Assembly (NCBI RefSeq): GCF_001895005.1
Contig: NZ_BCXH01000005.1
Coordinates: 186,001-250,000 of the forward strand
Length of the DNA stretch: 64,000 nt
Reading direction: 5' to 3'
Source of the DNA: Rhodococcus yunnanensis NBRC 103083
GTDB lineage: Bacteria; Actinomycetota; Actinomycetes; Mycobacteriales; Mycobacteriaceae
A model generated the notes under the pieces. It was given only the letters and a program-made list of their open reading frames with translations, searched no databases and was not told the origin of the DNA. The stretch's first letter is position 1. The number at the start of each line of letters is the position of its first letter. This document shows, in pieces, positions 10,242-62,839 of this stretch. A program made the position numbers and the translations under genes.

Positions 10242-10276
10242 GGGTTTCCTCCTGGAGTACTTCGGTCGAAAAGTGG

Positions 10277-11050
10277 TCAGTAGTAGATGAAGCCCGGCAC
10301 TCCGCCGCCGGCGAGGATGCCGTCTCCGGTGATGGCCACGCTGCGCGGAGATGCGAGGAATGCGACGACCCACGCGACTTCTTCGGGTTCGACGATGCGG
10401 CCGATGACGTTGTCGACCGGGATGTCCTGGTCGTTGTCTGCGTGGTCCTGTCTGAGCGACAGATAGCGTTCGGTTCGTGTGGGACCGGGGTGCACGACCG
10501 TGACGTTGATTCCGTGCGGACCCAGTTCGTCGGCGATGTTCTTGGTGAGTGCGGTGACCGACGCATTGCGTACCGATCCGATGACGGAGACGGTTTGGCG
10601 CGCACCGGTTCCGCTGATATTGATGATGCGGCCCCACTTGTTCTCGATCAGATGCGGCGCGACCGCGCGAATGGTACGCAGATAACCGATGACCTTGACG
10701 TTGATCTGGCGCTGGAACCACTCGTCGTCTGCGTCGATGTAACTGGAGCCGTGCTGAGCGGGCTGTTCCGCGGCGTTGTTGACAAGAATGTCGATTCCAC
10801 CGAGCGAATTCACCACCGTCTCGACGAGCTTCTGCACCGACGCATCGTCACCGGTATCGGCGGTGACTGCGAGTGTCTTGGTACCGGTCTCGGCGGTGAT
10901 CCGCTCGGCCGCGGACTCGATCACCTCGGTGCGGCGCGAGGTGATCGCCACCGACACCCCGTTGCGGGCGAGCTCGAGTGCGATCGCGTATCCGATACCT
11001 GTTCCTCCGCCGGTCACGAGTGCACGCTTGCCGGCAAGATCGAGAGTCAT
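10277..11050 (-). CDS. atypical short-chain dehydrogenase/reductase (catalytic Tyr/Lys replaced)
   Basis: 257 residues with an SDR Rossmann fold: cofactor motif GGGTGIG at 14-20, NNAA at 91-94, Ser146 in the catalytic-Ser position and a VVHPGPTRTER loop. Where classical SDRs have YxxxK, this protein has GSVRN (158-162), so both the catalytic Tyr and Lys are missing. I recall Ser/Arg/Asn-type motifs here in some actinobacterial SDRs, so this may be a natural subgroup rather than decay. It is the first gene of the - strand operon, 35 bases before the rhodanese, with a GGAAAGG ribosome site and a plausible promoter just upstream. Reaction unknown. Confidence 0.88.
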   Translation of the reverse strand: MTLDLAGKRALVTGGGTGIGYAIALELARNGVSVAITSRRTEVIESAAERITAETGTKTLAVTADTGDDASVQKLVETVVNSLGGIDILVNNAAEQPAQHGSSYIDADDEWFQRQINVKVIGYLRTIRAVAPHLIENKWGRIINISGTGARQTVSVIGSVRNASVTALTKNIADELGPHGINVTVVHPGPTRTERYLSLRQDHADNDQDIPVDNVIGRIVEPEEVAWVVAFLASPRSVAITGDGILAGGGVPGFIYY

Positions 11051-24039: not shown

Positions 24040-24392
24040 GAAATCTCCTTGGCTCCTGACGGGTGAATTCGTGTGTGCATCGAATCTATTGCCGGGGCGA
24101 ACGAGAATTGACAATTAATATCGCAGAGATTTCATTTCGACCTCAAGATTTACTTCAACTCCGAAGGTTCGAACGGTTCGGTGTAGAAGAGCTGTCGACA
24201 CGGTGAAGTAGCGCCTGACCTTTCGCTTCGGCAACGGAATTCATCATGGTTTCGAGCTTGGATCACGATGAATCTATTTATGGAGAACCATCGTGGGCAC
24301 GTTTATCGTTCTTGGAATGCTCTCCGGGCGGCAACTGTGCGGCCATCGAGAAAGCTGAATCTTGTCGAACCCTAAGCCAGAGAGGAATTGCC
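24040..24392. promoter_or_regulatory. divergent promoter region between the ACAD operon (-) and the transporter operon (+)
   Basis: About 350 bases, clearly AT-richer than its surroundings. It holds an ATTGACAAT palindrome at 24107-24115, whose - strand reading TTGTCA can serve as the -35 of the ACAD operon, with AATAGA (24085-24090) 18 bases downstream as a weak -10. The word AATCTATT occurs twice (24083-24090 and 24271-24278). An inverted repeat lies at 24264-24295. An open frame crosses the right half but its third-codon-position GC is low, so I read it as untranslated leader. Confidence 0.5.
24264..24295. repeat. inverted repeat CACGATG - 18 bases - CATCGTG in the leader region
   Basis: Perfect 7-base arms at 24264-24270 and 24289-24295. 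The spacer starts exactly with the AT-rich word AATCTATTTA, which is also found at 62974-62983. It could be a dimeric operator for the + strand transporter operon or a stem in its 5' leader RNA. Confidence 0.4.
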
Positions 24393-47621: not shown

Positions 47622-47740
47622 TTCTATTGCCGATTGACGTAGTGGAACTTGCTTGTTCATTCAATCCTGTTGCGCCAGACTGGTATCACACACGAAATGT
47701 GTTCGAATGCCAGTAGTGTCGGATGGATTGGACAACAAGC

Positions 47741-48811
47741 ATGAGTTATCGCACCCTGGGCAAGACCGGTGTCAAGGTCAGTCAATTGACATTGGGCGCA
47801 ATGAATTTCGGATCCCGCTCGGGCGCGCTGAGTGATCACGACGAGGCCGTCTCGATCATTCATCACGCGTTCGATTCCGGAATCAACATCGTCGACACCG
47901 CAGACTCGTACTCGCAGGGCGAGAGCGAGGAAATCGTCGGAAAGGCGATCAAAGGACGTCGCGACGACATCATCGTCGCGACCAAGTTCCACAGTCAGTG
48001 GAGCGACGGCGTCAACACCCGCGGCAGTTCACGCCGGTGGATCTTCCAGGAGGTCGAGAACTCGCTCCGCCGACTGGGTACCGACTACATCGATCTGTAC
48101 CAGCAGCACAAGCCGGACCCCGAGGTCGATATCAGTGAAACCGTCGGCGCGCTGGACGATCTGGTGCGTCAGGGCAAGATTCGGTACTACGGCACCACCA
48201 CCAACGAGGCTCATCTGCTGGTCGAGGCGCAGTGGGCGGCGTCCCGCGACGGTCGGAGCAAGCCCGCGACCGAGCAGGCTCCGTACTCGATTCTGGCGCG
48301 CGGCGCCGAGCGTGCAGTGTTCCCTGTCGCGCAGAAGTTCGACCTCGGTATTCTCACCTGGAGCCCGCTGGCAGGCGGATGGCTCTCCGGCAGGCACGTC
48401 GAAGGCAGCGAAGCGCCGCCGTCGGCACGGGCCGCGCGCATCCCGGCGCGCCACGATCCCGAGTTGCCGATCAACCGGACCAAGCGTGAACTGGCCATCC
48501 GGCTCGGCGACATCGCACGCGATGCAGGGTTGACGCTTCCCGAGCTCGCGGTGGCATTCGTGCTCAACCACCCGGCCGTATCGAGCGTTCTGGTCGGACC
48601 TCGCACGCGTGAACACCTCGACAGCCTGCTGTCGGTCCCGGAGATCGTGCTCGACGAGTCGGTCCTCGACGCTATCGACGAGGTCGTGCCCCCCGGCATC
48701 ACGATCAACCGGGCCGACGAGGGGTGGATCCCGACGTGGCTGACCAGCGACAAGGAAGGTCGACGACGGGTGCGCCCCTACCGCCCGACCGCAGTTCTCG
48801 CCGGCGCCTGA
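47741..48811 (+). CDS. aldo/keto reductase
   Basis: 356 residues from ATG 47741 (MSYRTLGKTG, the usual AKR start); ATG 47723 would add six residues. The full catalytic set is visible: Asp52 and Tyr57 in VDTADSYSQGESE, Lys82 in VATKFHSQ, His123 in LYQQHKPD. The TIM barrel continues with EQAPYSILARGAER and GILTWSPLAGGWLSG; a cofactor-binding PRTREHL near 295 is typical of NADPH-linked members. It lies 23 bases before another monooxygenase gene. It may reduce an aldehyde or ketone released by the monooxygenases. Confidence 0.92.
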   Translation: MSYRTLGKTGVKVSQLTLGAMNFGSRSGALSDHDEAVSIIHHAFDSGINIVDTADSYSQGESEEIVGKAIKGRRDDIIVATKFHSQWSDGVNTRGSSRRWIFQEVENSLRRLGTDYIDLYQQHKPDPEVDISETVGALDDLVRQGKIRYYGTTTNEAHLLVEAQWAASRDGRSKPATEQAPYSILARGAERAVFPVAQKFDLGILTWSPLAGGWLSGRHVEGSEAPPSARAARIPARHDPELPINRTKRELAIRLGDIARDAGLTLPELAVAFVLNHPAVSSVLVGPRTREHLDSLLSVPEIVLDESVLDAIDEVVPPGITINRADEGWIPTWLTSDKEGRRRVRPYRPTAVLAGA

Positions 48812-48834: not shown

Positions 48835-50154
48835 ATGACCACTGAGAGCGGGCCCGGTTTGCATCTGGGTATCAATTGCCCAGGGCACGGTTCGTATCGA
48901 CATGCGTGGCGACGACCTGGCATCGATCCACTCGGTACCGCCGACCCGGATTTCTACGTTCGGATTGCGCGGACAGCCGAGCGGGGCTTGTTCGACGCCG
49001 TCTTCACCGCGGATGTTCCGGCGTTGACGCCGACGTGGGAGCACCAACCGCAGCGGATGACTCTCGATCCTTTTCTCGCCCTCTCGATCGCGGCACGCGA
49101 GACCGAGTTCGTGGGTTTGGTGGTGACGGCGTCGTCGACGGTCAATCACCCGTTCAACTTGGCGAGATCGATCTCGACTCTGGATCGTATCTCGCACGGC
49201 CGGGCAGGGTGGAACGTCGTGACGAGCTACAACCCGCTGGTCGCACCGACTTACGGCCTCGACGGTCTCCCGCCGAAGGAGCAGCGGTATGCGCGGGCGA
49301 GCGAGTTCCTCGAGGTCGTCGACGGGTTGTGGAGGACGTGGGCGCCCGATGCGATCGTGGCGAACAAGCAATCCGGTCTGTACGCCACCGCGGACAGGGT
49401 GCGACCGATCGATCACGACGGTGAGTTCTACTCGGTGCACGGCGGCGGATTGATTCCGCCGTCCGAGCAGGGACTTCCGGTGATCTTCCAGGCCGGGGCC
49501 TCGGCCGGCGGGCTGGAGCTTGCGGCGACGCACGCCGATGCGACGTTCGTGTCCGCGGTGTCGCTCGACGTCGCACGGGAGTACCGGCAGTCTCTCGACC
49601 GTGCGTCGGCGGCTCATCGGACGCCCGGTAGGCCGGGTGTGCTTGCCCTGCCCGGCCTTACGGTCACGCTCGGATCGACCGACGAGGAAGCCGAACGTCG
49701 CCGCGACGAGCTGTCCGACGCCGGAGCCGACGACGAAGCGTTGCAGATGCTCTCGCAGCGCCTCGGTGTTCCCGCCGCCGAGATCGACCTGGACGCACCG
49801 ATAGTGTTGAACGACAGTATTTTCGAGGGACAGCGTGGTGAGACGTCCGAGGGTTTCCTGCGGTCACTCAAGTCTCAGGCAGACGAGGGCGCGACGGCCA
49901 GGGACGTCATCCGCAGAGGCGTCGGGCATCTGTCGGTCATCGGTGGGCCGAAGAAGGTCGCCGACCTGATCGAGGAATGGTTCTCGACGGGCACGGTGGA
50001 CGGCTTCAACCTCATGTTCGATGTGATCGACGAGACGTTCGATCCGTTCGTCGACGAAGTTGTTCCCATTCTGCAGGAGCGCGGATTGTTCCGAAAGCAG
50101 TACCGAGGCCGAACGTTGCGCGAGCACATGGGCCTGCCGATCCCGACCTGGTGA
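48835..50154 (+). CDS. DszA/NtaA-family FMN-dependent monooxygenase
   Basis: 439 residues from ATG 48835. The N-terminus LHLGINCPGHGSYRHAWR is typical. Then ARTAERGLFDAVFTADVPAL, HPFNLARSISTLDRISHGR, RASEFLEVVDGLWRTW, IPPSEQGLPVIFQAGAS and VIGGPKKVADLIEEWF, VDGFNLMFD. The PRSPQG motif is changed to PPSEQG, so substrate range may differ. It comes directly before three unusual enzyme-like genes and a two-receptor Dpp importer, probably in one transcript. Confidence 0.92.
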   Translation: MTTESGPGLHLGINCPGHGSYRHAWRRPGIDPLGTADPDFYVRIARTAERGLFDAVFTADVPALTPTWEHQPQRMTLDPFLALSIAARETEFVGLVVTASSTVNHPFNLARSISTLDRISHGRAGWNVVTSYNPLVAPTYGLDGLPPKEQRYARASEFLEVVDGLWRTWAPDAIVANKQSGLYATADRVRPIDHDGEFYSVHGGGLIPPSEQGLPVIFQAGASAGGLELAATHADATFVSAVSLDVAREYRQSLDRASAAHRTPGRPGVLALPGLTVTLGSTDEEAERRRDELSDAGADDEALQMLSQRLGVPAAEIDLDAPIVLNDSIFEGQRGETSEGFLRSLKSQADEGATARDVIRRGVGHLSVIGGPKKVADLIEEWFSTGTVDGFNLMFDVIDETFDPFVDEVVPILQERGLFRKQYRGRTLREHMGLPIPTW

Positions 50155-50182
50155 AAACACCCCAAGACAGCGAGGAAAGATC

Positions 50183-50884
50183 ATGACACGAATCGTCGAA
50201 TTCAGCCCGGTGTTCGCCGAGGCCACCAACAGCTCGTTCCATCACGTGCAGGGAATCTGGAACGCACGCGAGCACGCCGAACGGCAGGCGGCCGAGCGTG
50301 GGCACACCTACAGCAGCCCGGAGCAGGGCGGAGTATCGCAGGCGGCGGCGACCGAATTGCTCTCCACTGCAGATGCTCTCGTGCTCGCCCCGACCGTCGC
50401 CGCGCCGACCGGGATGTGGCAGCCGACCGACGGGGAGGAAGCGGGCCGCCTGATCGGGCACCGGCTGCTCGACGTTCTCAGCTCGCAGCGCCCCGACCTG
50501 CACATCGTGCTCGTCTCGCATTTCCTCGTCGGACACGGTGCAACGCACAAGAACTCGAAGCCGAGCACATGGGGGCTTCGCGCGTTGGAGGCGCATCTGC
50601 GCGGCGGCGACAATCCGTGGACCATCCTGCGGCCGACGTGGTTCTCCACCATTCACGACCCCGCCTACCAGACGCGACTGACCGGCGACCGCAACGCCGA
50701 CGGGCTGGTCAGTGCCGAGAGCGTCGCCGATGCAGTGTTGACCGCCATCGAGAACCCGCACGCTGCGGCAGGGCGTACCGCCGCGGTGTACAACCTGGCC
50801 ATCCCCGACGTGCCGCGCACAGCCCTGGTGGCGCAGTTCGAAAACCTCGATCGCGATGTCGAAGCACTGGTGGGGCAGCGATGA
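50183..50884 (+). CDS. NAD(P)-binding NmrA/SDR-a5-like protein lacking the glycine-rich motif
   Basis: 233 residues from ATG 50183 with a GAGGAAAGA ribosome site. The second half matches atypical SDRs of the NmrA/NAD(P)H-binding group: LHIVLVSHFLVGHG, a STWGLRALEAHLRGG helix where these proteins carry their K/A-rich helix, NPWTILRPTWFSTI, and SAESVADAVLTAIENP. The first 40 residues should hold GxTGxxG but read VEFSPVFAEATNSSFHHVQG, with no glycine loop. Cofactor binding is therefore doubtful. Coupled to the next gene by ATGA. Confidence 0.65.
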   Translation: MTRIVEFSPVFAEATNSSFHHVQGIWNAREHAERQAAERGHTYSSPEQGGVSQAAATELLSTADALVLAPTVAAPTGMWQPTDGEEAGRLIGHRLLDVLSSQRPDLHIVLVSHFLVGHGATHKNSKPSTWGLRALEAHLRGGDNPWTILRPTWFSTIHDPAYQTRLTGDRNADGLVSAESVADAVLTAIENPHAAAGRTAAVYNLAIPDVPRTALVAQFENLDRDVEALVGQR

Positions 50885-51942
50885 GTCGGCCTCGCGGGCA
50901 GCACGAATGGGAGTCGACGTTCGGCCACGATCACCTCGGGCGGCCGACCCCACCGAAATACCAGCTGCTGACGCTCGTCGATGTGGTGACGCCGAAGTCG
51001 GATGCCGCAGTGGCACATCTCGAGTCGACGCTCGGCGCGATCGAGAACCGATTCGTCCACGGCCCCGACGGCATCCTGTCCACTGTCGGGTGGGGGCCGT
51101 CGTGGTTCGACGGCCACACCGAGCACCGAGGGTTGGTCAACGTCCCCGCGCGCATGTCGCGGTGGGAGGATCCGGTGATCGACACTCCGCACGCACTGTT
51201 TCATCTGGCGAGCGACCACGAGGACATTCTCGAGGCTGCGTTCGACGAACTGTTCGGAATCGGCGAGGGTGCTCAGGGGGAATACCTTCGAGTGCAGGAA
51301 GTTCGACGCGGATTCGTCGGTGCCGGACTGCCGACGAACGCGCTTCCCGAGCTCGGTATACCCGAGAATTCGCCGTTGCTGTTCGGGTTTCATTCGATTC
51401 ACCGCGGCAATCAAGCGACCGAGGAGTCCATCACGATCGCCGACGGTCCGTTGCAGGGTGGAACCACCGCGCACGTATCTCGTATCGAGCTCGACGTCGA
51501 GCGCTGGCACGCCCGCGACCGCGATCAGCAGGCGGCACTGTTGTATGCGCCGACCGTCACCGCCAAGGAGGCCGAGGCGTTCGTCGACGACGCGCCGAGC
51601 GACTACCACGCGTACGAGAGCACCGTGAAAGAGCACGGCATCGTCGGCCACGCGCAGGCAGCGGCGCGGGCGCGAGTGAACAACGTACCCATCATCAACC
51701 GCAGGGATTTCGCGACGATCGAGGGCGGCAAGCCCGGCACACACTTCGTCTCACTGCAGCGAGAGCTCCGCGATTTCAACAACACTCGCGCGATCATGAA
51801 CGCAGCCGACGGAACCGACTATCACCGCAGCGTCGGTGCTCGCCGCCGCAACGGCATCAACGCGTTCTTCGACGTCACCCACCGCGCGACGTTCGGCATT
51901 CCGCAGCGCGCACAGCGCGCCTACCCGTACTGGAGAAACTGA
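50881..51942 (+). CDS. DyP-peroxidase-like protein (heme dimeric alpha/beta barrel), active-site motif altered
   Basis: 353 residues. The order of segments fits the dye-decolorising peroxidase fold: DTPHALFHLASDHEDILEAAF in the first barrel, SPLLFGFHSIHRGN where DyP enzymes have GFxDG, then GGTTAHVSRIELDVERW, a GHAQAAARAR stretch (His257, candidate proximal heme ligand) and INRRDFATIEGG. The distal Asp of GxxDG (expected near 172) is not visible. No Tat signal. Fold assignment is from pattern only; it may be a heme protein with a changed role. Overlaps the upstream stop as ATGA and lies 6 bases before the next gene. Confidence 0.5.
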   Translation: MSRPRGQHEWESTFGHDHLGRPTPPKYQLLTLVDVVTPKSDAAVAHLESTLGAIENRFVHGPDGILSTVGWGPSWFDGHTEHRGLVNVPARMSRWEDPVIDTPHALFHLASDHEDILEAAFDELFGIGEGAQGEYLRVQEVRRGFVGAGLPTNALPELGIPENSPLLFGFHSIHRGNQATEESITIADGPLQGGTTAHVSRIELDVERWHARDRDQQAALLYAPTVTAKEAEAFVDDAPSDYHAYESTVKEHGIVGHAQAAARARVNNVPIINRRDFATIEGGKPGTHFVSLQRELRDFNNTRAIMNAADGTDYHRSVGARRRNGINAFFDVTHRATFGIPQRAQRAYPYWRN

Positions 51943-51948
51943 ACAGCC

Positions 51949-52620
51949 ATGTCATCGAAGATTCTCGACCCCGACTCGGCACTCGTGCTGAGCGAGATCC
52001 TCGCCGAGCCCGCCCTTCCCGTCGGCACCGCCGCCGCGGGCCCCGGCGGCGCGAGGGGCGCCGCGCTCCGTGAGGCAGTCGACCACCTCACGTCGGTGCG
52101 CACGTCCGATGTGCGCGGGCGAACCGAGGACGAGACCGACGCGTTCCTGCGTGACCTCGCTGCCATCGATCCCGAGCTGGCGGATGTCCTGCGCTGGCAC
52201 GTGGCACTCATCGCCGTTCTCGAAGCGCATGGACCGTCGAGGGCCCGAAACGCGGTGTTGGGTGACATCGCCCGCGGTGACGTACTCACCCTCGCGACCG
52301 ATGTACGACGGTGGCAGTGGCGCGAGGGCCGGGCACCGGGCGAGGCGAATCCGATCGCAGCTGTCGACGGTGAGGTGTCGGTCGACGAATACCCCGGTTT
52401 GTACGACTACATCCTGGTCTCGGTCGACGGAACGCTCGTTGCGCTTCCCACTCACCGGGACCGCGTCGAGTGGGAACCACAGGGTGGTGCGTGGTCGGTA
52501 CGGCTCGATCGTGTGACCGTCCACCGAGACGAACTGATCGATCTGGGGCATCACCCACGCGAGGCCGCCGGCTGGCGCGAACCCATTCACACCGCACGCA
52601 GAATCGACGGAATCAGATGA
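51949..52620 (+). CDS. truncated acyl-CoA-dehydrogenase-like protein (mini-ACAD)
   Basis: 223 residues. The segment FLRDLAAIDPELADVLRWHVALI followed by DIARGDVLTLATDVR matches the N-terminal helical region of the DszC-like proteins in this window. LYDYILVSVDGTLVALPTHRDRV, then AWSVRLDRVTVHRDELI, matches their middle beta domain (SDYIRVSA, AVVPAHREGV, FDNVRVEKSELL at 61625-62839). It stops there: the C-terminal helix bundle of about 180 residues that completes the FAD site is absent, and so is the extreme N-terminus. The ends join neighbours cleanly (6-base gap, 4-base overlap), so it is not an obvious broken gene. Probably a non-catalytic or partner protein. Confidence 0.6.
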   Translation: MSSKILDPDSALVLSEILAEPALPVGTAAAGPGGARGAALREAVDHLTSVRTSDVRGRTEDETDAFLRDLAAIDPELADVLRWHVALIAVLEAHGPSRARNAVLGDIARGDVLTLATDVRRWQWREGRAPGEANPIAAVDGEVSVDEYPGLYDYILVSVDGTLVALPTHRDRVEWEPQGGAWSVRLDRVTVHRDELIDLGHHPREAAGWREPIHTARRIDGIR

Positions 52621-54224
52621 AGAAGCTTTCGACCGTGTTCGCCGCTGCCGTGCTGGCCGCCGCGCTCGTGGCCTGCTCGGGTGGCGGAACACCCGGAGCC
52701 TCCGCAGGCGGCGAGCCACAACAGGGCGGCGACATCATCTTCCTCGAGAACGGTGAGTTCACCGGCTTCGCGCAGCAGGACCTGCGGACGTGGCAGACGT
52801 CCTCCGTCGCGGTCAATCTGTTCGACCGGCTCGTCTACCTCGACCCGAAGACCGGTGAACTGGAGCCGTGGCTGGCCACGTCCTGGACCGTCGATGCCGA
52901 TGCCACCGAGATCGAACTGACCCTGCGCACCGACGTCACCTTCAGCGACGGCACCCCGCTCACCCCCGAGGTGATCGTCGCGAACCTCGACCGATTCGGC
53001 ACGGGCGACCCCGACAACGGCATCACCCCGTCGCGTCCTCAGTTCGCGCGATACGCGAGCTCGACGGCGGTGGGCAACGACAAGGTCGTCATCACCCTGT
53101 CGCAGCCGGATACCGGCTTCCTCAACAATCTGGCCGACCTGCGGCACTCCATCGTCGCGCAGTCGACCCTGGACCTGGGCTACGAGGACGCGTCGAAGCT
53201 CGAGAACGCCATCGGCACCGGCTCGTTCGTGTTCGACTCACAGAAGCCGGGCAGTGAGATCAAGATCGTGAAGCGCGACGGGTACGACTGGCCGCCTGCC
53301 TCCGCAGCGCACACCGGTGAGGCGTACCTGGACTCGATCACCTACATCATCTCCAGCGAAGGTGCATCACGCACAGGACTGTTGTTGTCGGGACAAGCTC
53401 AGGCGGCACGTGACGTCCTCATCACCGACGAGAAGCAGTTGCAGGACCAGGGATTCCACTACTACGGCGCCAGGCCGTTCGGTGGCGTGCGGGACCTCGA
53501 GATCAACCCGTCCGCGAACCCGATCATCGCGGATCCGAACGTGCGCAAGGCAATCCTGCACGCGATCGACCGTGACGAGTTGATCGACACCGTGTACAAC
53601 GACAACTGGACCACGGCAACAGGTTTGGTGCAGTCCAACACCCCCGGATACGTCGACATCGGCGACGAGTACGGCTTCGACGCCGAACAGGCCAACGAGC
53701 TGCTCGATCAGGCCGGGTGGACCGTGAAGGGCGCAGACGGCATTCGGACGAAGGACGGCCAGCGTCTGACGTTCACGATCTACCCGGAGTCGCAGTGGGT
53801 CGTCCCGATCCCCGACGCCGAGCTCATCGCAATTCAATTGGCACGTGTCGGAATAGAATTCGAGATCGTCAAGGTCGACCGATCCACCTACAACGCACAG
53901 GTCGCCAAGCCGGACAATCCGTTCTCGTGGGGCCACGCCACTGCAACCGACGTCAACCAGCTGTGGAACCGGTATCGCTCGGGCGGCGTCGGTGGTCTGA
54001 ACGATCCCGCGTTCGACGCGTTGCTCGACGTCATCAAGACCACCCCGATCGGCGAGGCACGCACCGAAGCCGTCGCCCAGGTGCAGAAGTACCTGCTCGA
54101 CAACGCCATCATCGTGCCGCTGCAGGAGACGCAGCAATCCTTCGTCACGGCACCTCAACTCAACGGATTCGAACCCGAAACGCTGGGACGGTCGTACTTC
54201 TACGACGCCTGGCTCGACGACTGA
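52617..54224 (+). CDS. family 5 (peptide/nickel-type) substrate-binding lipoprotein, first of a tandem pair
   Basis: 535 residues. Signal peptide with lipobox LVAC, Cys20. Features: QQGGDIIFLENGEFTGF, LVYLDPKTGELEPWLATSW, DVTFSDGTPLTPEVI, VRKAILHAIDRDELIDTVYND and LLDQAGWTVKGADGI. The whole protein lines up with the next gene product, including the shared GRSYFYDAWLDD-type end, so they arose by tandem duplication. The ATG overlaps the mini-ACAD stop as ATGA, tying these genes to one transcript. Ligand unknown. Confidence 0.93.
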   Translation: MKKLSTVFAAAVLAAALVACSGGGTPGASAGGEPQQGGDIIFLENGEFTGFAQQDLRTWQTSSVAVNLFDRLVYLDPKTGELEPWLATSWTVDADATEIELTLRTDVTFSDGTPLTPEVIVANLDRFGTGDPDNGITPSRPQFARYASSTAVGNDKVVITLSQPDTGFLNNLADLRHSIVAQSTLDLGYEDASKLENAIGTGSFVFDSQKPGSEIKIVKRDGYDWPPASAAHTGEAYLDSITYIISSEGASRTGLLLSGQAQAARDVLITDEKQLQDQGFHYYGARPFGGVRDLEINPSANPIIADPNVRKAILHAIDRDELIDTVYNDNWTTATGLVQSNTPGYVDIGDEYGFDAEQANELLDQAGWTVKGADGIRTKDGQRLTFTIYPESQWVVPIPDAELIAIQLARVGIEFEIVKVDRSTYNAQVAKPDNPFSWGHATATDVNQLWNRYRSGGVGGLNDPAFDALLDVIKTTPIGEARTEAVAQVQKYLLDNAIIVPLQETQQSFVTAPQLNGFEPETLGRSYFYDAWLDD

Positions 54225-54263
54225 TCCGCCCACACCCCGAGAACATCTGGAGAACACACGATC

Positions 54264-55892
54264 ATGACCACATCCATCCGATTCCGGCGATCGGCCGCCG
54301 GTCTCGCAGTCTCCGTCGTGGCAGTGCTCGTTGCTGCCTGCGGTGGGGCGGGTGCAAGCCCCGACAGCAGCGGTGGCGGTGAACCACAGCAGGGCGGCGA
54401 CGTCATCTTCCTCGAGAGCGGCGAGTTCACGAGTTTCGCGCAGCAGGACCTGCGCCTGTGGCAGAACTCGTCGGTCTCGGTGAATCTGTTCGATCAGCTG
54501 GTCTACCTCGATCCGGAGACCGGGACACTCGAACCGTGGCTCGCGGCGTCGTGGGAGATCAACGACGACTACACCGAGTTCCTGCTGACCCTGCGCGACG
54601 GCGTCACCTTCAGCGACGGCAGCCCGCTGACCCCCGAGGTCGTCGTCGCCAATCTCGATCGGTTCGGGTACGGCGACACCGCGCGGGGCTACTCGCCGTC
54701 GAAACCGCAGTTCAACAACTACGACCACGCCGAGAAGGCAAGCGAGAACCAGGTCAGGATCTTTCTGAAGAAGACCGACACCGGATTCCTCAACGGTCTG
54801 AGCGATCTTCGGCATTCGATCTTCGGTCAGGCCGCACTCGACCTCCCGTACGAGGAAGTCGCCGACGTGAGCCAGGCCGTCGGCAGCGGGCCGTTCGTCG
54901 TCGACTCGGTCGAAGGCAGCACCGAGATCAAGATCGTCAAGCGTGACGGATACGACTGGGGCCCGGGATCGGCCGACCACACCGGTGAGGCGTACCTCGA
55001 TTCGGTGACGTACATCGTCTCGAGCGAAGGTTCGTCGAGGACAGGACTGCTGCTGTCGAACCAGGCGCAGATCGCACGGGACATTCTCATCACCGACGAA
55101 AAGCAGCTGCAGGGCAAAGGCTTCCACTACATCGCCTCGCGGCCGTTCGGTGCCGTGCGGGAACTGTCGATCAACCCGTCCGCCAACGCGGCCGTGGCCG
55201 ACGTCCGTGTTCGACGCGCCATTCAGAAGGGGATCGACGTCGACGAAATTCTCGGTGCGATCTACAACGACAACTGGATCAAGGCCACCGGCCTGATTCA
55301 GGCCACCACACCCGGTTACAGCGAGGCGGTCAGCGATTACCCGTACGACGCTGCTGGGGCCGAGGCGTTGCTCGACGAAGCAGGCTGGACCACCCGCGAC
55401 AGCGACAACATCAGGACCAAGGACGGACAGCGGTTGGAGTTCACGCTCTACCCCGAGCTCAACTGGGTCGCCGCAGTGCAGGACGCCGAGCTCATCGCCA
55501 TCCAGCTCGAACGCATCGGGATCAAGATCGACGTCAGCAAGGTCGATCGCACGACGTACACGACCGTGACCACGGCGCCGGACAACGTCTTCTACTGGAA
55601 TCACCAGACAGGCGCCGACGTCAGCCAGCTGTGGACCAGGTACCGCGACGGCGGTGCAGGCGGGTACGACAACGCCGAATTCGATTCACTCGTCGGTGCC
55701 ATCGCCACCATTCCCGTCGGTGACGAGCGGACCGAGGCCGTCGACAAGGCGCAGCGGAAGTTGCTCGACGACGCCATTGTGATTCCGCTGGAGGAGACCC
55801 AGCAGTCCTTCGCGACGGCACCGAACCTGTACGGCTTCAAAGCGGAGACGCTCGGCCGCTCCTACCTCTACGACGCCTGGTTGGACGACTGA
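54264..55892 (+). CDS. family 5 (peptide/nickel-type) substrate-binding lipoprotein, second of a tandem pair
   Basis: 542 residues. Signal with lipobox VAAC, Cys26. Mature landmarks: QQGGDVIFLESGEFTSF, LVYLDPETGTLEPWLAASW, GVTFSDGSPLTPEVV, VRRAIQKGIDVDEILGAIYND and LLDEAGWTTRDSDNI. Close paralogue of the preceding protein, with different signal peptide and many changes in the middle, where ligand contacts lie. One base separates it from the permease start. Two receptors sharing one importer would widen the ligand range. Confidence 0.93.
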   Translation: MTTSIRFRRSAAGLAVSVVAVLVAACGGAGASPDSSGGGEPQQGGDVIFLESGEFTSFAQQDLRLWQNSSVSVNLFDQLVYLDPETGTLEPWLAASWEINDDYTEFLLTLRDGVTFSDGSPLTPEVVVANLDRFGYGDTARGYSPSKPQFNNYDHAEKASENQVRIFLKKTDTGFLNGLSDLRHSIFGQAALDLPYEEVADVSQAVGSGPFVVDSVEGSTEIKIVKRDGYDWGPGSADHTGEAYLDSVTYIVSSEGSSRTGLLLSNQAQIARDILITDEKQLQGKGFHYIASRPFGAVRELSINPSANAAVADVRVRRAIQKGIDVDEILGAIYNDNWIKATGLIQATTPGYSEAVSDYPYDAAGAEALLDEAGWTTRDSDNIRTKDGQRLEFTLYPELNWVAAVQDAELIAIQLERIGIKIDVSKVDRTTYTTVTTAPDNVFYWNHQTGADVSQLWTRYRDGGAGGYDNAEFDSLVGAIATIPVGDERTEAVDKAQRKLLDDAIVIPLEETQQSFATAPNLYGFKAETLGRSYLYDAWLDD

Positions 55893-55893
55893 C

Positions 55894-56895
55894 ATGGCTG
55901 CACCGATCGATTCCTACCGAAAGTACTCGCTGGTGCGGGTCGGGCACGGGCTGATCGTGCTTGCCCTGTCCTATCTGACGGTGTTCCTGCTCCTCTTCGT
56001 GCTGCCGGGTGATCCGATCAGCGCCAGGCTCAACGACCCCGATTCGAGCTATTCGCCCGAGCAGATCGATCAGTTGCTCGCCTACTACGGGATGGATCAG
56101 CCCCTGACGGTGCAGTTGTGGCGGGCCGTGTCTCGGCTGTTCCAGGGCGATCTCGGATACTCGTTGACCACGGTGGAGCCGGTCGGTGAGAGGATACTGC
56201 AGGCATTGCCGTCGACGATTCAGCTGTCGGTGATCACGCTCGTGTTCTCGGTGCTCATCGCGTTGGTGCTGACCGTGATCGCCACGGTCGCACCGGCGTT
56301 GCCGGTACGCCGGTTCGCGGCGTCGGTTCCCGCGGGTCTGCTGTCGGTGCCGACGTTCGTGTTCGGTCTGCTGGTGCTCCAGGTGTTCTCCTACAATCTC
56401 GGTCTGTTCAGCACCCTGAAGACCGACGGATGGGTCGGCGCACTTCCCGCCGCAGCGGTACTGGCGCTCCCCATTTCGGCGCCGTTCGCGAGGGTACTGA
56501 TCGAGAATGCGCGTGAAGTGCAGACCGAACCGTTCGTCACGTTCGCCAAATCCAAGGGTATGAGTACGCCGCGACTGCTGTTCGCGCACATCGCGCGTCC
56601 GTCGTCACTGCCGGGAGTCACCATGCTCGGTCTCGCCGCAGCCGAACTGATCACGGGCTCGGTCATCGTCGAGGCGATCTTCAACAGGCACGGAATCGGT
56701 TCGGTCATCGAATCCGCAGTGTCGAGCCAGGATTCACCGGTGCTACTGGGCGTCATTCTCCTCGCCGCCGGAGTGGTCGTCGTGGTCAACCTCGGCGTCG
56801 ACCTGCTCTATCCACTGCTCGACCCGCGACTCAAGGGTGCACCGACCGAAGCCGCGGCGACCGTCACCCCGACCAGTGTGGAGGCACTTCGATGA
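55894..56895 (+). CDS. Dpp/Opp-type ABC transporter permease (DppB-like)
   Basis: 333 residues. N-terminal helix LIVLALSYLTVFLLLFVL with the LPGDPISARL motif; a periplasmic segment; five more helices; coupling loop FVTFAKSKGMSTPRLLFAHIARP; then GSVIVEAIFNRHGIG. Begins one base after the receptor stop and overlaps the next permease by 4 bases. Confidence 0.93.
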   Translation: MAAPIDSYRKYSLVRVGHGLIVLALSYLTVFLLLFVLPGDPISARLNDPDSSYSPEQIDQLLAYYGMDQPLTVQLWRAVSRLFQGDLGYSLTTVEPVGERILQALPSTIQLSVITLVFSVLIALVLTVIATVAPALPVRRFAASVPAGLLSVPTFVFGLLVLQVFSYNLGLFSTLKTDGWVGALPAAAVLALPISAPFARVLIENAREVQTEPFVTFAKSKGMSTPRLLFAHIARPSSLPGVTMLGLAAAELITGSVIVEAIFNRHGIGSVIESAVSSQDSPVLLGVILLAAGVVVVVNLGVDLLYPLLDPRLKGAPTEAAATVTPTSVEALR

Positions 56896-57770
56896 CACTC
56901 ACTGCCGAGAAGCCGGACGCGGCGGTCACCCCGCCTCGCCGGTCGAGGGATTGGTCGGGACTGCGAAGACATCTGTCCCCGTTGACGATCCTGTCCTCGA
57001 TCGTCGTCGCGATCATCCTGATCGCCGCGATCGTCCCGGGACTGCTCCGCACGCACGATCCGTTCCAGGAACACTCGAACGAGGTGCTGCTCGCGCCGTC
57101 GGGTACGTACTTCCTCGGTACCGACTACCTCGGACGCGACATCTACTCGCGGCTCATCGAAGGCACGGGAATGTCGGTGGTCAGTGCACTGCTGGCCGTC
57201 GTGATCGGTCTCGTGGTGGGTTCGGCGATCGGTCTGATCGCCGGTTACTACGCAGGCGGCCCCGTGGAGAGTGTGTTGATGAGGTTGGTGGACACCCTCA
57301 TCGCGATCCCGGCGCTGCTGTTGTCGATGGCCATCGTCGTAGCACTGGGGTTCTCGACGATCAATGCCGCTATCGCAGTGGGTGTCTCGTCGGTGGCGAC
57401 GTTCGCTCGACTGATGCGATCGGAAGTCCTTCGTATCCGATCACTCCCGTATCTCGAAGCCGCCGAACTGGTCGGCGCACGAGGGCGTGCGTCGATTCTG
57501 TCCCACGTGCTGCCCAACGCTCGCTCCAGTGTGCTCGCGCTGTCGGTGCTGCAGTTCGGTGCGGCCATTCTGGCGATCGCGTCACTGGCATTCCTCGGCT
57601 ACGGTGATTCACCGCCCTCGCCCGAATGGGGAGTGCAGGTGGCCGAGGGAAAGAACTACGTGTTCTCCGCCCCGTGGATGGTCGCAGTTCCGTCGATCGC
57701 GATCGTCCTGACGGTACTTGCCTTCAATCGTCTTTCCGTCGTCGTGAAGGAGTTGACCAACGATGAGTGA
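56892..57770 (+). CDS. Dpp/Opp-type ABC transporter permease (DppC-like)
   Basis: 292 residues. Polar N-terminus, first helix, then YFLGTDYLGRDIYSRLIEGT, five helices with the loop YLEAAELVGARGRASILSHVLPN, and PPSPEWG late. The usual WFGTD is YFLGTD here. RBS GGAGG before the ATG; the stop overlaps the ATPase start by 8 bases. Confidence 0.93.
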   Translation: MTLTAEKPDAAVTPPRRSRDWSGLRRHLSPLTILSSIVVAIILIAAIVPGLLRTHDPFQEHSNEVLLAPSGTYFLGTDYLGRDIYSRLIEGTGMSVVSALLAVVIGLVVGSAIGLIAGYYAGGPVESVLMRLVDTLIAIPALLLSMAIVVALGFSTINAAIAVGVSSVATFARLMRSEVLRIRSLPYLEAAELVGARGRASILSHVLPNARSSVLALSVLQFGAAILAIASLAFLGYGDSPPSPEWGVQVAEGKNYVFSAPWMVAVPSIAIVLTVLAFNRLSVVVKELTNDE

Positions 57771-59379
57771 GATCGTGCTGGATGTGGACGGACTGACGGT
57801 GGGATACCGGACCCGCGGGAAGGTCCATCGCACGGTACACGAGGTGTCGTTCGCCGTGCCGAAGGGCGGCGCGGTGGCGCTCGTCGGTGAATCGGGCTCG
57901 GGGAAGTCGACACTGGCCAATGTGGTGCTGCGGCTCGCTGCGCCGAATGCCGTCATCGAGGCGGGTGAGGTGACCTACAACGGTGAGTCGCTGTCGACGG
58001 CGTCCACTGCACGGCTGCGGGCGTTGCGCGGAAACGACATCGCCTATGTCCCGCAGGATCCGGCGAACTCGCTCAACCCGGTGCGTACGATCGAGAGCCA
58101 GTTGCTCGAAACGCTCGCGGTGACCGGATCCGCGCATGACGGCAGTGCGACCGTCGTCGAACTGCTGACCGAGGTGGGGATTCCGCGTCCCGCCGAGGTC
58201 GCGACGAGGTACCCGCACCAACTCTCGGGCGGTATGTTGCAGCGTGTTCTCATCGCATCGGCCATCGCAGCGCGGCCGACGCTGCTGATCGCCGACGAGC
58301 CGACGTCCGCGCTCGATGTCACCGTGCAGCGCCGTGTACTCGACCTGCTCGATCATCTGCGCGGCGAGCTCGGCTCCTCGTTGTTGTTGATCACTCACGA
58401 CCTCGCGCTCGCCAAGGAGCGCTGCGATGATCTGGTGGTCCTCGAGGCGGGCAGAGTTCAGGAGACCGGCAGTGCCGCAGTGGTGTTCGAGAATCCGACG
58501 AGCGACTACACGCGCAGCCTGCTGGCCGATGTACCTGCTCTCAACGCGGACAAGTTCGGCAAACTGACCGCAGCTCCGGTGCAGCAATCCGGCAGTGCGG
58601 TTCGCATCGTCGATGTGAGCAAGAGGTTCGCGCGCGGGGGTGTACTGGCGCTCGACGGTGTGAATCTGAACGTCGGCCGCGGAACGACCCACGCGATCGT
58701 CGGCGAATCCGGTTCCGGTAAAACGACGCTCGCGCGCTTGATCCTCGGGCTCGATCATCCGACATCGGGTGAGGTGTTCATCGACGGAGCGCAGCTCGAT
58801 CATTCGAAGCCGGAGTCCCTACATGATGCGCGACGACGGCTGCAGCTGGTCTATCAGAATCCCTTCGTCTCACTCGATCCCACGTACACCGCGGCGCAGT
58901 CGGTGGCCGAGCCGCTGCTGCGGTACCGAATAGGCACCAGGGCCTCGCGCGCTGCGAAGGCCAGGGAACTGCTCACACTCGTCGGGCTTCCGGCAGCCGC
59001 GCACGATTCTCTACCCAAACGACTCAGCGGCGGACAGCGCCAGCGCGTCGCGATCGCTCGGGCGCTCGCACTCGAACCCGAGGTCCTTGTGCTCGACGAA
59101 CCCACCAGCGCGCTGGATGTCACGGTCCAGGCGCAGATTCTCGAGCTGCTCGTGGCCCTGCAACACGAGCTCGGGTCGACCTATCTGCTCATCTCGCACG
59201 ATCTCGGCGTCGTGCGGCAGATCGCCGACGACATCACGGTGCTGCGTCACGGCATCGTCGTCGAATCCGGTTCGGCGCGAGATGTGTTCGCCGCACCGAC
59301 CCAGGATTACACGCGTGACCTGATCGAATCGGTACCCGGGTGGGCCGAGTCCGGCGCACGCGACACCGTCCCAGCGTGA
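57763..59379 (+). CDS. fused Dpp-type ABC ATPase with two nucleotide-binding domains (DppD-DppF)
   Basis: 538 residues with two ABC domains. Domain 1: GESGSGKSTL, LSGGMLQRVLIA (Leu in place of the usual Arg), IADEPTSALDVT. Domain 2: GESGSGKTTL, LSGGQRQRVAIA, VLDEPTSALDVT, and LISHDLGVVRQ. AAGGAG ribosome site lies inside the permease gene. Energises the two-receptor importer; 25 bases before the DszC-like gene. Confidence 0.93.
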   Translation: MSEIVLDVDGLTVGYRTRGKVHRTVHEVSFAVPKGGAVALVGESGSGKSTLANVVLRLAAPNAVIEAGEVTYNGESLSTASTARLRALRGNDIAYVPQDPANSLNPVRTIESQLLETLAVTGSAHDGSATVVELLTEVGIPRPAEVATRYPHQLSGGMLQRVLIASAIAARPTLLIADEPTSALDVTVQRRVLDLLDHLRGELGSSLLLITHDLALAKERCDDLVVLEAGRVQETGSAAVVFENPTSDYTRSLLADVPALNADKFGKLTAAPVQQSGSAVRIVDVSKRFARGGVLALDGVNLNVGRGTTHAIVGESGSGKTTLARLILGLDHPTSGEVFIDGAQLDHSKPESLHDARRRLQLVYQNPFVSLDPTYTAAQSVAEPLLRYRIGTRASRAAKARELLTLVGLPAAAHDSLPKRLSGGQRQRVAIARALALEPEVLVLDEPTSALDVTVQAQILELLVALQHELGSTYLLISHDLGVVRQIADDITVLRHGIVVESGSARDVFAAPTQDYTRDLIESVPGWAESGARDTVPA

Positions 59380-59404
59380 CCACTTCTACCGGTAAGGACT
59401 ACTC

Positions 59405-60712
59405 ATGACCACATCGACAGCTCTACACATCGAGACGGCATTGACCGATGCTCAGTTGCTGGAACGCTTTCGGTCGACATTCGACCGTATCGCCGAGGGC
59501 GCGCTCGACCGCGAGACCGTACGCCGTGTTCCGATCGAGGAGGCGCGATGGCTCGGTGAACTCGGTTTCGGTGCGCTGCGCGTACCCCGTGAGCTCGGTG
59601 GCTTCGGGGTGTCGTTGCGGCAGCTCTTCGGCTTGTTCGTCGAACTGGGGGCGGCTGAATCGAATCTCGTGCAGGCACTTCGAGTCCATTTCCGGTTCAC
59701 CGAGGACCGATTGCGCGAGCGGGACACCGAACGCGGACAGCTGTGGCTGCAGCGAATCGCCGAGGGCGCCATCGTCGGCAACGCGAGCAGTGAGCGCGAA
59801 GGCAACATCCGCGGGCGCACCAACACGACGCTGCGCGCCGACGGGGATACGTTCCTGCTCAACGGAACCAAGTACTACAGCACCGGTGGACTGTATGCCG
59901 ACTACGTCTCCGTCGCCGTGGTCACCGACGAGGGCGAGCGCGTCACCGCCGTCGTCCGCAGCGACGCGCCCGGCGTCCAATTGCTCGACGACTACACCGG
60001 ATTCGGGCAGCGGACCAGCGGCAGCGGCACGACGGTCCTCACCGATGTCGTCGTATCGCCCGAGGACATCATCAGGCAGGAACAGGTACTCGCAGGGCAG
60101 CTGGCGGGGCTGCAGCTGACGCATCTGGCGACCATCGCAGGCATCGTACGGGCCGCGGTCGACGAGACGGCGGGCTTCGTCCGGCGTCGGCGCCGCTCCT
60201 ACAGTCAGGCCAGCGCCGACCTGCCCCGTGAGGATCCGCAGGTACAGCAGGTCATCGGGCGGGTCGACGCCGTCGCGCACGCGTTGAAGCAGATCGTGCT
60301 CGGTGCTGCGGACGAACTGGACTCCGCTGTCGACGCGCGCTACGCGCTGCGTGTCGCCGAACCTGCCGCACGCACCGAGGACGCCGAGGCGGCGGTGCGT
60401 GAGGCGGAGCTGACGGCCGAGCTGGGCTCCTACCGTGCGCAGTCATCGGTCATCGACCTCGCGCTGCGAGCGACGGCGGAGATCTTCGAGGTCGGTGGAG
60501 CGTCGGCACTCGACGAGAGCCTGCACCTGGATCGGCACTGGCGAAACGTGCGGACCCTGTCCTCGCACAACCCCGTCATCTACCGAGAGAGGGCCATCGG
60601 GGACTTCGTACTCAACGGGACCGAGCCCGTCAACGTGCCGTCGGTGGGGGAGGCGCCCGGTCTGGCGGAGGTATCGGATCAGGATGCGGTGGTGGCCGCG
60701 GCCACGCGCTGA
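59405..60712 (+). CDS. DszC-like acyl-CoA-dehydrogenase-fold flavin monooxygenase
   Basis: 435 residues. N-terminal helical domain with LGFGALRVPRELGGFGVSLRQL, middle beta domain with FLLNGTKYYSTGGLYADYVSVAVV and FGQRTSGSGTTVLTDVVV, then a helical C-terminal domain ending in GGASALDESLHLDRHWRN and SSHNPVIYRERAIGDF. The NGTKYYSTG, SGSGTT and DRHWRN...HNP blocks mark the DszC/SfnB branch, which uses reduced flavin and O2 rather than dehydrogenating acyl-CoA. A GGTAAGGA ribosome site precedes the ATG. It closes the + strand operon; its last 34 bases overlap the convergent LysR gene. Confidence 0.88.
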   Translation: MTTSTALHIETALTDAQLLERFRSTFDRIAEGALDRETVRRVPIEEARWLGELGFGALRVPRELGGFGVSLRQLFGLFVELGAAESNLVQALRVHFRFTEDRLRERDTERGQLWLQRIAEGAIVGNASSEREGNIRGRTNTTLRADGDTFLLNGTKYYSTGGLYADYVSVAVVTDEGERVTAVVRSDAPGVQLLDDYTGFGQRTSGSGTTVLTDVVVSPEDIIRQEQVLAGQLAGLQLTHLATIAGIVRAAVDETAGFVRRRRRSYSQASADLPREDPQVQQVIGRVDAVAHALKQIVLGAADELDSAVDARYALRVAEPAARTEDAEAAVREAELTAELGSYRAQSSVIDLALRATAEIFEVGGASALDESLHLDRHWRNVRTLSSHNPVIYRERAIGDFVLNGTEPVNVPSVGEAPGLAEVSDQDAVVAAATR

Positions 60713-61596
60713 TGCGCGATGTCCCGCAGTGTCTGCACGACGACGGACACTGCGGGATTCTCGAGCGCACCCTCGCGATGCACCACGTCGATGGTGCGGC
60801 TGCCGACATCGAAGCCGTCGACGATCATCGATTCGAGGGTCGGCGGCACCGACATTCGAGGCACGAGTGCCACCGCACCTCCGATAGCGGCGAGCTGGCA
60901 CATGTTCGGCGCCCCGACCACCCGATGTTCGATCTTGGGCGTGAACCCGTGCCGCTCGCCGAGCAGCGTGAGTGCCTCGGCGAGCCCGGTGTCCTGTGGC
61001 CCGGTGATCCACGCCTCGTCGGCCAACGACCGAAGGCCTACCGTCCGAACACGAAGTGCGACAGCAGCCGGTGCCAGCAGCACGAGGGGGTCACGCAGCA
61101 GCGCGTGGCTGTGCAGGCCGCTCAACGGATCGGCGGCGCGGAAGTCGAGTCGAGAGGTGAGCGCGACATCGGTGTCACCGTGCCGAAGCGACCGAAGCGA
61201 GACCGGCGTCGGCGCCTGAACGACACGGACGGTCAGCTCGGGTTTGTCTCGTCGGAGTCGATGCAACAGCGGAGCGGCGAGACCGGGTATGGACGTCTCG
61301 AATCCGGAGAGCGCGATGCGCCCGCCGTTGCGATCCCGTGTCCTGGCGACCGCGCTCGTCGCCTCGTCGACGACACGGAGAATCTCGCGCGCGTGCGAGA
61401 CGAGGGTCTCGCCGCTCTCGGTGAGGCGTAGATTACGGCCGTCGCGCCGGAACAGCACCGCGGACACCTCGTCCTCCAACACTCGAAGTTGAGAGGACAC
61501 CGCAGAACTGGTGATGTTGCGTCGCTCGGCGACGGCGGTGACCGTGCCGAGCTCGGCCAGATCGCGCAGCAACATCAACCGCCGAAAGTTCAGCAT
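60679..61596 (-). CDS. LysR-family transcriptional regulator
   Basis: 305 residues from ATG 61596 (MLNFRRLMLLRDLAELG), the usual LysR beginning; open frame further upstream is inside the next gene. Winged helix at about 4-62 with VAERRNITSSAVSSQLRVLEDEVSAVLFRR. The ligand-binding part spans about 90-290 with two alpha/beta lobes. It starts 28 bases after the stop of the DszC-like gene at 61625, so the two probably share a transcript. It is the likely regulator of this region. Such proteins often sense sulfur metabolites or pathway intermediates. Confidence 0.9.
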   Translation of the reverse strand: MLNFRRLMLLRDLAELGTVTAVAERRNITSSAVSSQLRVLEDEVSAVLFRRDGRNLRLTESGETLVSHAREILRVVDEATSAVARTRDRNGGRIALSGFETSIPGLAAPLLHRLRRDKPELTVRVVQAPTPVSLRSLRHGDTDVALTSRLDFRAADPLSGLHSHALLRDPLVLLAPAAVALRVRTVGLRSLADEAWITGPQDTGLAEALTLLGERHGFTPKIEHRVVGAPNMCQLAAIGGAVALVPRMSVPPTLESMIVDGFDVGSRTIDVVHREGALENPAVSVVVQTLRDIAHQRVAAATTAS

Positions 61597-61624
61597 CGGA
61601 GTTCTGTCCTGCGGCGCAGTCGCA

Positions 61625-62839
61625 TCAGAAGAAGCCCACCGACGGCAACGCGGTGTCGTTGACGACGAAGTCCCCCACGGCACGGGCCTTGTAGACGGTC
61701 GGGTTGTGGGAGAACAAGGTCCGAAGGTTCCGCCAATGCCGGTCGAGGTGTGCGCTCTGCCGAGTCGCCGAAGCACCACCGACGGCGAACAGATCGGTTG
61801 CCGAGTTCAGCGCCAAACCCTCCACCGAGATCTTCGCCTTGGCGGCTGCGAGGGCAGCGTCGTGCTCGAGCTTCTCATCGGGCTGCCCCGACGACAGCGC
61901 TGCGTCGGTGGCGAGGTCCTGCGCCTGCGCGGCGGTGAGAACGACGGCCTCCACGGCGTACGCCGCCGCCGACAGCGCCCCGATGATCTGGAGCAACTGA
62001 GGATCGTGCCGCGGTTCCTCGGCACTCGCGAAGGTGTACGACCTCGCCCTGCCTCGAACCAGGTCCGACGCGTCCGTCACGATCGAGCGAAGGATTCCTG
62101 CCGCGACTGCATGCAGCAGAAGCTGCGGGAACGCCTGACGGGGGCGGACGGTGTGCTCGGACCACTGGAACGGCAGGAGCTCGGACTTCTCCACCCGGAC
62201 GTTGTCGAAACGCGTCGTCCCACTTCCGGTGTGCCGCTGGCCGATGCCGTCCCAATCGTCGACGTGTACGACGCCTTCCCGGTGGGCCGGTACCACTGCC
62301 GAGATCTGCTTGCCGTCGGCGTCGTTCGCGGAGACTCGGATGTAGTCGGAGAACAAACTGCCGGTGCTGTAGAACTTGGTGCCGTTCAGACGGAAACCGT
62401 CGCCGTCGGGAAGCAATGTCGAATCGTAGGTGTAGACACCGACAGCGCGTGAGGTCAGCTCGCTGCTCGCACCCCCGATGAGCAGTCCTTCCCGTACCTT
62501 GTCGAGCCAGAATCGACCCGATTCTCGATCGGGGGTCCGCCGACGTTCCTCGACGAAGCCCAGATGAATGCGGATGATGTGGGGGACATCCGGATCTGCT
62601 TCGGCGAGCCGGATCAGCAGGGTGAAGAGCTCGTGCAGCGAATACCCGGCGCCCCCTTCGTCGACCGGCAGCCGCACTGCGCCGAGGCGATGTGTGCGGA
62701 TGAGCTCTATCGCCGCGAGCGGCGGCGCGTCCTCACCCTCGCGGCGCCGCTTGGCGTCCGCAGCTATGTCGTCGATGATCGACTGGAGTTCTTCCGAGTC
62801 GAGAGCCGGTGGGGCGATGCGCTCGATGGCCGTCGTCAT
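61625..62839 (-). CDS. DszC-like acyl-CoA-dehydrogenase-fold flavin monooxygenase
   Basis: 404 residues. LGAVRLPVDEGGAGYSLHEL in the N-terminal domain, then GASSELTSRAVG, FRLNGTKFYSTGSLFSDYIRV and GQRHTGSGTTRFDNVRV in the middle, and GGASATRQSAHLDRHWRN with FSHNPTVYKARAVGDFVV at the end. Same subgroup as the protein at 59405-60712 and the best full-length comparison for the mini-ACAD at 51949. Its upstream region carries CTTGACAAG and AATCTATTTA, words shared with other flavoprotein promoters here. Confidence 0.88.
   Translation of the reverse strand: MTTAIERIAPPALDSEELQSIIDDIAADAKRRREGEDAPPLAAIELIRTHRLGAVRLPVDEGGAGYSLHELFTLLIRLAEADPDVPHIIRIHLGFVEERRRTPDRESGRFWLDKVREGLLIGGASSELTSRAVGVYTYDSTLLPDGDGFRLNGTKFYSTGSLFSDYIRVSANDADGKQISAVVPAHREGVVHVDDWDGIGQRHTGSGTTRFDNVRVEKSELLPFQWSEHTVRPRQAFPQLLLHAVAAGILRSIVTDASDLVRGRARSYTFASAEEPRHDPQLLQIIGALSAAAYAVEAVVLTAAQAQDLATDAALSSGQPDEKLEHDAALAAAKAKISVEGLALNSATDLFAVGGASATRQSAHLDRHWRNLRTLFSHNPTVYKARAVGDFVVNDTALPSVGFF

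Follow-up and report, generated by a model that had tools for sequence, protein, structure and literature searches.

Why would an operon with the makings of an organosulfur uptake and oxidation system carry, between a monooxygenase gene and an importer, three genes for enzyme-like proteins that have each lost a hallmark of their parent family? The operon lies in a stretch of 64,000 nucleotides from Rhodococcus yunnanensis NBRC 103083 (contig NZ_BCXH01000005.1, positions 186,001 to 250,000; the window in what follows). Gene calls there give ten genes, A to J, all on the + strand between 48835 and 60712 and spaced by 28, -4, 6, -4, 39, 1, -4, -8 and 25 bases, the co-directional run with overlaps or gaps of at most 39 bases that a first-pass annotation of the window had described. 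The three genes in question encode B, a Rossmann-derived protein, C, a DUF7405 protein with a predicted DyP-peroxidase fold, and D, predicted to be half an acyl-CoA dehydrogenase (ACAD); they stand between the monooxygenase A and the importer E-I, and the flavoprotein J closes the run. The reading preferred here, tentatively, is that B, C and D are a co-inherited module of an operon of the organosulfur uptake and oxidation type, likely joined in one heme-centred complex.

Conservation and spread of the B-C-D genes

The order B-C-D is the same in all 11 loci compared: the locus in the window, nine found through D (in Nocardia, Acrocarpospora, Millisia and an actinobacterial metagenome-assembled genome) and one, in genome G609, found through C in a class-wide sample. 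The co-occurrence of the three products, which the first-pass annotation had counted on, is therefore real, with nine of the loci found through D. The B/C overlap measures 4 bases in every one of the 11, and the spacing between C and D runs from -4 to +6 bases. Coupling takes a more direct form in two natural C-D fusion proteins (P0077 and P0079), which carry the D domain behind C and were found among 120 listed of 270 C relatives; since the list covers part of the relatives and the search excluded proteins longer than 1.75 times the query, more such fusions may exist. Together, the fusions and the invariant B/C overlap suggest that a physical B-C-D complex is likely. An indirect count of same-contig pairs, which takes equal length as same contig and covers the first 58 (P0019-P0076) of the 120 C rows, gives 29 cases of B with C and 10 of C with D.

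All three genes are under purifying selection, with dN/dS far below 1. Identity of the window trio to the ten other loci is 45-56% for D, 57-69% for B and 70-77% for C, so that D evolves fastest, C slowest and B in between. C is about as conserved as the operon enzymes A (70-73%, four loci) and J (57-76%); relatives of an aldo-keto reductase encoded upstream of A are 78-87% identical. The genes referred to here and below are these:

47723..48811, + strand: aldo-keto reductase (PF00248, 237.4 bits), upstream end of the conserved unit
48835..50154, + strand: A, luciferase-like flavin mononucleotide (FMN) monooxygenase of the NtaA/DmoA subfamily (TIGR03860, 427.5 bits)
50183..50884, + strand: B, Rossmann/NmrA-like protein without the glycine-rich dinucleotide loop (PF13460, 33.9 bits)
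50881..51942, + strand: C, DUF7405 protein, DyP-peroxidase fold by prediction, Ser172 replacing the catalytic Asp, invariant His257 and Arg274/275
51949..52620, + strand: D, mini-ACAD of 223 residues, N-terminal and middle domains only (predicted fold)
52617..54224, + strand: E, first solute-binding lipoprotein (PF00496, 232.6 bits; lipobox-like LVAC)
54264..55892, + strand: F, second solute-binding lipoprotein (PF00496, 213.4 bits; 63% identity to E)
55894..56895, + strand: G, Opp/Dpp-type permease (PF00528, 84.2 bits)
56892..57770, + strand: H, Opp/Dpp-type permease (PF00528, 88.9 bits)
57763..59379, + strand: I, ATPase with two ATP-binding cassette (ABC) domains on one chain (PF00005, two stretches)
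59405..60712, + strand: J, full-length SfnB/DszC-like flavoprotein, C-terminal HNP segment intact (TIGR04022, 266.3 bits, below cut-off)
60682..61779, - strand: LysR-type regulator, convergent with J (PF00126, PF03466; open-frame coordinates, true start probably further in)
61625-62839, - strand: ACAD2, second SfnB/DszC-like flavoprotein, upstream of the LysR gene and convergent with J

Relatives of D are scarce, numbering 18 proteins, own included, at E up to 0.001 in a search restricted to relatives sharing short exact words. D occurs in one of 396 genomes of the phylum, and C, at E up to 1e-20, in two of 397 genomes of the order (the own genome and one with a distant, partial match) and in two of 35 genomes of the family of G609, one of them a fragment. 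DUF7405 matches occur in 28 of 394 genomes of the class, 10 of them over the cut-off, with own and G609 in this clade; neither B nor D was found in the short flanks of seven of the other eight over-cut-off loci (L027, L028, L030-L034; L035 left out). A search around G468 (15 genomes) gave no match and carries no weight. In another genome, G658, fragments of C (residues 1-68) and J (residues 44-109) adjoin each other in the same orientation (L067, 7709-8112), the remnant of a lost operon copy.

C and B of Nocardia aurea (L017) are 83% and 87% identical to those of Acrocarpospora (L014, L015), which belongs to another order than Nocardia, and identity this high across orders suggests that the trio was likely transferred horizontally.

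What travels with the trio was counted within the available flanks of the 11 loci, of which L012 ends at a contig edge. A luciferase-like monooxygenase lies near the trio in all 11, an aldo-keto reductase in 10 (exception L019) and an SfnB/DszC-type flavoprotein in nine (exceptions L019 and L012), which agrees with the sulfur-type oxygenase setting of the first-pass annotation. As a chance baseline, about 2.6% of the own genome lies within 10 kb of a strong SfnB-type match (eight above 240 bits; 8 x 21 kb), a figure taken from that genome only and set against loci that are not all independent. The same genome (G000, 6.37 Mb) holds 91 luciferase-like monooxygenase family matches.

The whole order, aldo-keto reductase-A-B-C-D-receptor-permease-permease-ATPase-J, is kept in L013, L016 and L018, the last with a second flavoprotein before J; in L013 and L016 a LysR relative comes next, and L017, L018 and L066 have an ACAD2 relative close to the trio. 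The aldo-keto reductase relative directly precedes the A relative in L012, L013, L016 and L018 (four of the nine loci found through D), and in the window it ends 23 bases before A on the same strand, so that the co-directional unit includes this gene besides the ten first listed. E to I make up a complete Opp/Dpp-type importer set (two SBP_bac_5 receptors, two permeases, ABC ATPase domains). E and F are paralogous, as had been noted, but the pair is not a conserved feature: L013, L016 and L018, which have the whole downstream importer, have one receptor each, and with the 63% identity of E and F this makes the pair look like a local duplication. Nor is the trio tied to the importer and A, as had been supposed, for in Acrocarpospora, in the metagenome-assembled genome (L019) and in G609 it stands without them directly beside it.

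The assignment of A as a DszA/NtaA-type monooxygenase holds, its NtaA/DmoA score being over the cut-off of 279.7 bits. J had been called a full DszC-like protein. Full length it is, but the SfnB model (TIGR04022, cut-off 430.9 bits) fits it better than the DszC model (NF043015, 111.9 bits against a cut-off of 850), and being below both cut-offs it is most aptly labelled a full-length SfnB/DszC-like protein. Neither A nor J passes the equivalog cut-offs of the DszC, SfnB, SfnG or SsuD models. The SfnB model gives 13 matches in the own genome at E up to 1e-20, all scoring below its cut-off.

Residues lost and kept in B, C and D

B matches NAD_binding_10 (PF13460, cut-off 27.2 bits) over residues 107-192 only, its second half. 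The glycine loop is absent from all 48 relatives aligned (of 60 found), searched with four patterns over the first 60 residues, and the first beta-alpha unit has been rebuilt, with an invariant Trp26 and near-invariant Gly24 and Asn27. B retains a conserved pocket. Having no dinucleotide loop, it is filed as Rossmann-derived and not as a dehydrogenase. Profile matches to sequences in the PDB were weak for all three proteins (best E 0.00059 for B, an NmrA family protein; 0.019 for C, a DyP peroxidase; no meaningful match for D), and predicted folds of C and D were used instead.

C is a full-length match to DUF7405 (PF24152, 270.5 bits, cut-off 27.1, model positions 1-346 of 347) and scores 14.4 bits, below threshold, against the DyP family of Pfam; its predicted fold is the two-ferredoxin-like-domain fold of DyP proteins. 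Aligned by hhalign to a single protein, EfeB or YfeX, C gave low probabilities (13.5 and 0.5), and a profile of EfeB and 10 DyP-like frames took the place of the single sequences. For that profile 20 loci were pooled, 10 kept for G[FY].DG in frame and 10 dropped, so the motif is in the set by construction. In the resulting alignment the Asp of GxxDG falls on Ser172, and Arg274 on the first Arg of LRRGY, the distal Arg. Across the 73 C relatives used (of the 120 listed) the position of the Asp is always Ser, and His257, a candidate proximal ligand, and Arg274 are always kept. The window copy starts without a signal peptide. With Ser in place of the catalytic Asp C is not filed as a DyP peroxidase; with its His and Arg pocket invariant and its conservation like that of the operon enzymes, it probably binds heme and reacts.

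How much does the lost Asp matter? Reports on DyP proteins are divided on the more important catalytic residue (PMC6153280, PMC8197335): loss of the Asp alone does not abolish DyP activity according to the one (PMC6153280), and D171N eliminated Compound I in another DyP according to the other (PMC8197335).

Searches with D gave nothing in Pfam at E up to 1 or in NCBIfam at E up to 0.1. The predicted fold is that of an acyl-CoA dehydrogenase with the N-terminal helical and middle beta-sheet domains present and the C-terminal helical domain absent, the model showing no helix of at least 4 residues beyond residue 198. The absence is a family trait: all 18 members are 195-242 residues long, none has the HNP segment of J, and all keep the His of the LRxH segment. 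Two apparent stops in the D gene of L020 come from a tblastn match that runs past the true stop at 10639. Could D be the front piece of a split ACAD? In the window E overlaps the stop of D, and in the nine loci found through D what follows is a gene for a receptor, an aldo-keto reductase or a LysR-type regulator; in L066 the next gene is an ACAD2 relative matched over residues 10-404. The split-enzyme explanation is out. With its C-terminal domain gone and the fastest divergence of the three, D is probably a docking subunit.

The features first noticed in the window copies, B without a glycine loop, C DyP-like without GxxDG and D a mini-ACAD of 223 residues, thus belong to whole families. A frameshift here, with intact ordinary homologues elsewhere, had been named as one thing that would undo the proposal, and the losses are instead family-wide. 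Frameshift, split gene and pseudogene are all excluded by losses that are identical across the aligned relatives (48 B, 73 C, 18 D) and by low dN/dS.

A proposed heme-centred complex and its rivals

An invariant heme-pocket set is not expected of a dead scaffold, which is why we assign chemistry to C, binding of a small molecule to B and docking to D. C would be the redox subunit, with His257 as heme ligand and Arg274 on the distal face. Because Ser replaces the Asp, the usual rapid peroxidase cycle would be closed to it; it may instead use peroxide, for example peroxide escaping from the two flavin monooxygenases, or receive an oxygenated intermediate from them. B would be the small-molecule-binding partner of C, and D would imitate a subunit of an SfnB/DszC-type enzyme (J or its kin), placing C beside it. 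From its gene content we infer a role for the operon in organosulfur acquisition: the importer would take up an organosulfur compound, J would oxidise the sulfur, A would cleave the C-S bond and the aldo-keto reductase would reduce the carbonyl product, the trio acting on some reactive intermediate or by-product that these reactions yield. A bolder version, in which three re-tooled enzyme scaffolds make B-C-D a new type of heme oxygenase or peroxygenase complex, fed by the flavin enzyme via D and carrying out an organosulfur step beyond the flavin monooxygenases, is unlikely.

Several observations weigh against the preferred reading. Because D was the query that led to nine of the ten relatives, these are silent on how often C occurs without it. 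A Streptomyces plasmid (L024, 6446-9068) carries genes for a zinc-binding dehydrogenase, a B-like protein and a DUF7405 protein with overlapping ends (C relative 51% identical; B relative at profile E 2.9e-32 in that single comparison), with no D within 17 kb; B-C is thus probably the older core, which D would have joined as a third partner, and the plasmid pair is possibly the ancestral form. The flavoprotein nearest the trio varies by locus between J, kin of ACAD2 and, in the three Acrocarpospora loci, a relative 35-36% identical to J, with none in L019 and L012, so that docking to J itself is weakly supported. His257 lies one column off the EfeB His in the profile alignment. Haloarchaeal C relatives appear to point to metal, not sulfur.

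Are all three proteins catalytically dead, serving A and J as scaffold, heme carrier or flavin/substrate chaperone? This was the first-pass proposal, and it is possible, if on the unlikely side. The loss of a hallmark in each protein speaks for it (B loop 0/48, C Ser 73/73, D HNP absent 18/18), and the C-D fusions fit a scaffold equally. However, the heme-pocket His and Arg of C are kept without exception, its conservation equals that of A and J, and the Asp loss is not by itself fatal to a DyP (PMC6153280). The label non-enzymatic fits D best and C least.

The haloarchaeal relatives suggest another role, in which C would handle heme or iron, as proposed for EfeB-like DyPs, the trio would supply or recycle either, and the sulfur neighbourhood would reflect co-regulation. 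These proteins are 30-36% identical to C, with no B or D among their annotated neighbours. On three plasmids (L023, L062, L063) of the eight haloarchaeal loci, a DUF7405 gene of Tat (twin-arginine translocation) type overlaps a gene annotated as an iron transporter; a similar-sized hypothetical gene holds that position in a fourth (L064), and iron transporters lie about 4 kb away in a fifth. The other three, however, have no iron gene close by, none was found among the window open reading frames scanned, the window C has no signal peptide, and B and D are left without a role, all of which makes this explanation improbable.

A flavin-cycle role, with B, and perhaps D, carrying or reducing flavin for A and J, is quite improbable. 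Two-component flavin monooxygenases of the types of A and J require reduced flavin, B is of NAD(P)H-binding type, the operon has no flavin reductase, and none turned up among the 50 open reading frames scanned with Pfam, which are a part of those in the window. Yet the loop is missing from every B aligned, and D is without the C-terminal domain that closes the flavin site in ACADs. This view leaves C without a function, and the genome may encode a suitable reductase in another place. That the three genes are decaying relics deserves next to no credence: the hallmarks are absent and the adjoining C and J fragments of G658 show that decay happens somewhere, but losses shared by all aligned relatives, dN/dS far below 1 and junctions invariant in 11 of 11 loci contradict it.

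Sulfur-type surroundings and comparison with known systems

The open reading frames scanned in the window include six luciferase-like monooxygenases, three further Opp-type importers, NMT1/phosphonate-type receptors and a four-rhodanese protein; judged from these, the window is a sulfur-type island. The four rhodanese stretches (PF00581) lie in a 699-residue open frame (8622-10721, - strand), a candidate for an unusual multi-domain sulfurtransferase. Two other frames, at window 22939-24114 (- strand, 392 residues) and at L015 7095-8126 (- strand, 344 residues), match the N-terminal acyl-CoA dehydrogenase domain only and are perhaps another diverged ACAD-like family in such islands.

The usual picture of sulfur scavenging from organic compounds has flavin monooxygenases and importers doing the work; a heme-centred B-C-D complex, if true, would bring in a component of a third kind. 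It would also be the first clue to the function of DUF7405, a family of haloarchaea and actinobacteria that has no described function and is named in no paper of the literature searched; the B-C-D module is likewise without a description there. A half ACAD fused to a heme-type fold is, as it seems, a clean case of an enzyme fold turned adaptor subunit.

Set beside its parent families, each protein departs in its own way. B shares the second Rossmann half, including the TILRPTW segment, with the NmrA-like and NAD_binding_10 atypical short-chain dehydrogenases/reductases, unlike which it lacks the glycine loop and has a rebuilt first unit. C is a full-length DUF7405 member that differs from DyP-type peroxidases and EfeB in its own motif, GF(H/R)Sxx(R/K)xxQAxE, in Ser for the GxxDG Asp, in its coupling to B and D and, in the window copy, in the missing signal peptide. 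D shares the N-terminal helical and middle beta domains and the LRxH His with SfnB/DszC-type flavoproteins, without their C-terminal helical domain and HNP segment. As for the operon, the desulfurization-linked proteins of a Gordonia strain growing on dibenzothiophene include an SfnB-family protein and an NtaA/DmoA monooxygenase (PMC11852219). With the DszA/DszC, SfnG/SfnB, MsuD/MsuC and SsuD systems, some of which are named in that study (PMC11852219), the operon shares NtaA/DszA-type and SfnB/DszC-type monooxygenases, an importer and a LysR gene; to the plan of such two-component flavin monooxygenase systems it adds B-C-D and an aldo-keto reductase, and its importer is of Opp/Dpp type.

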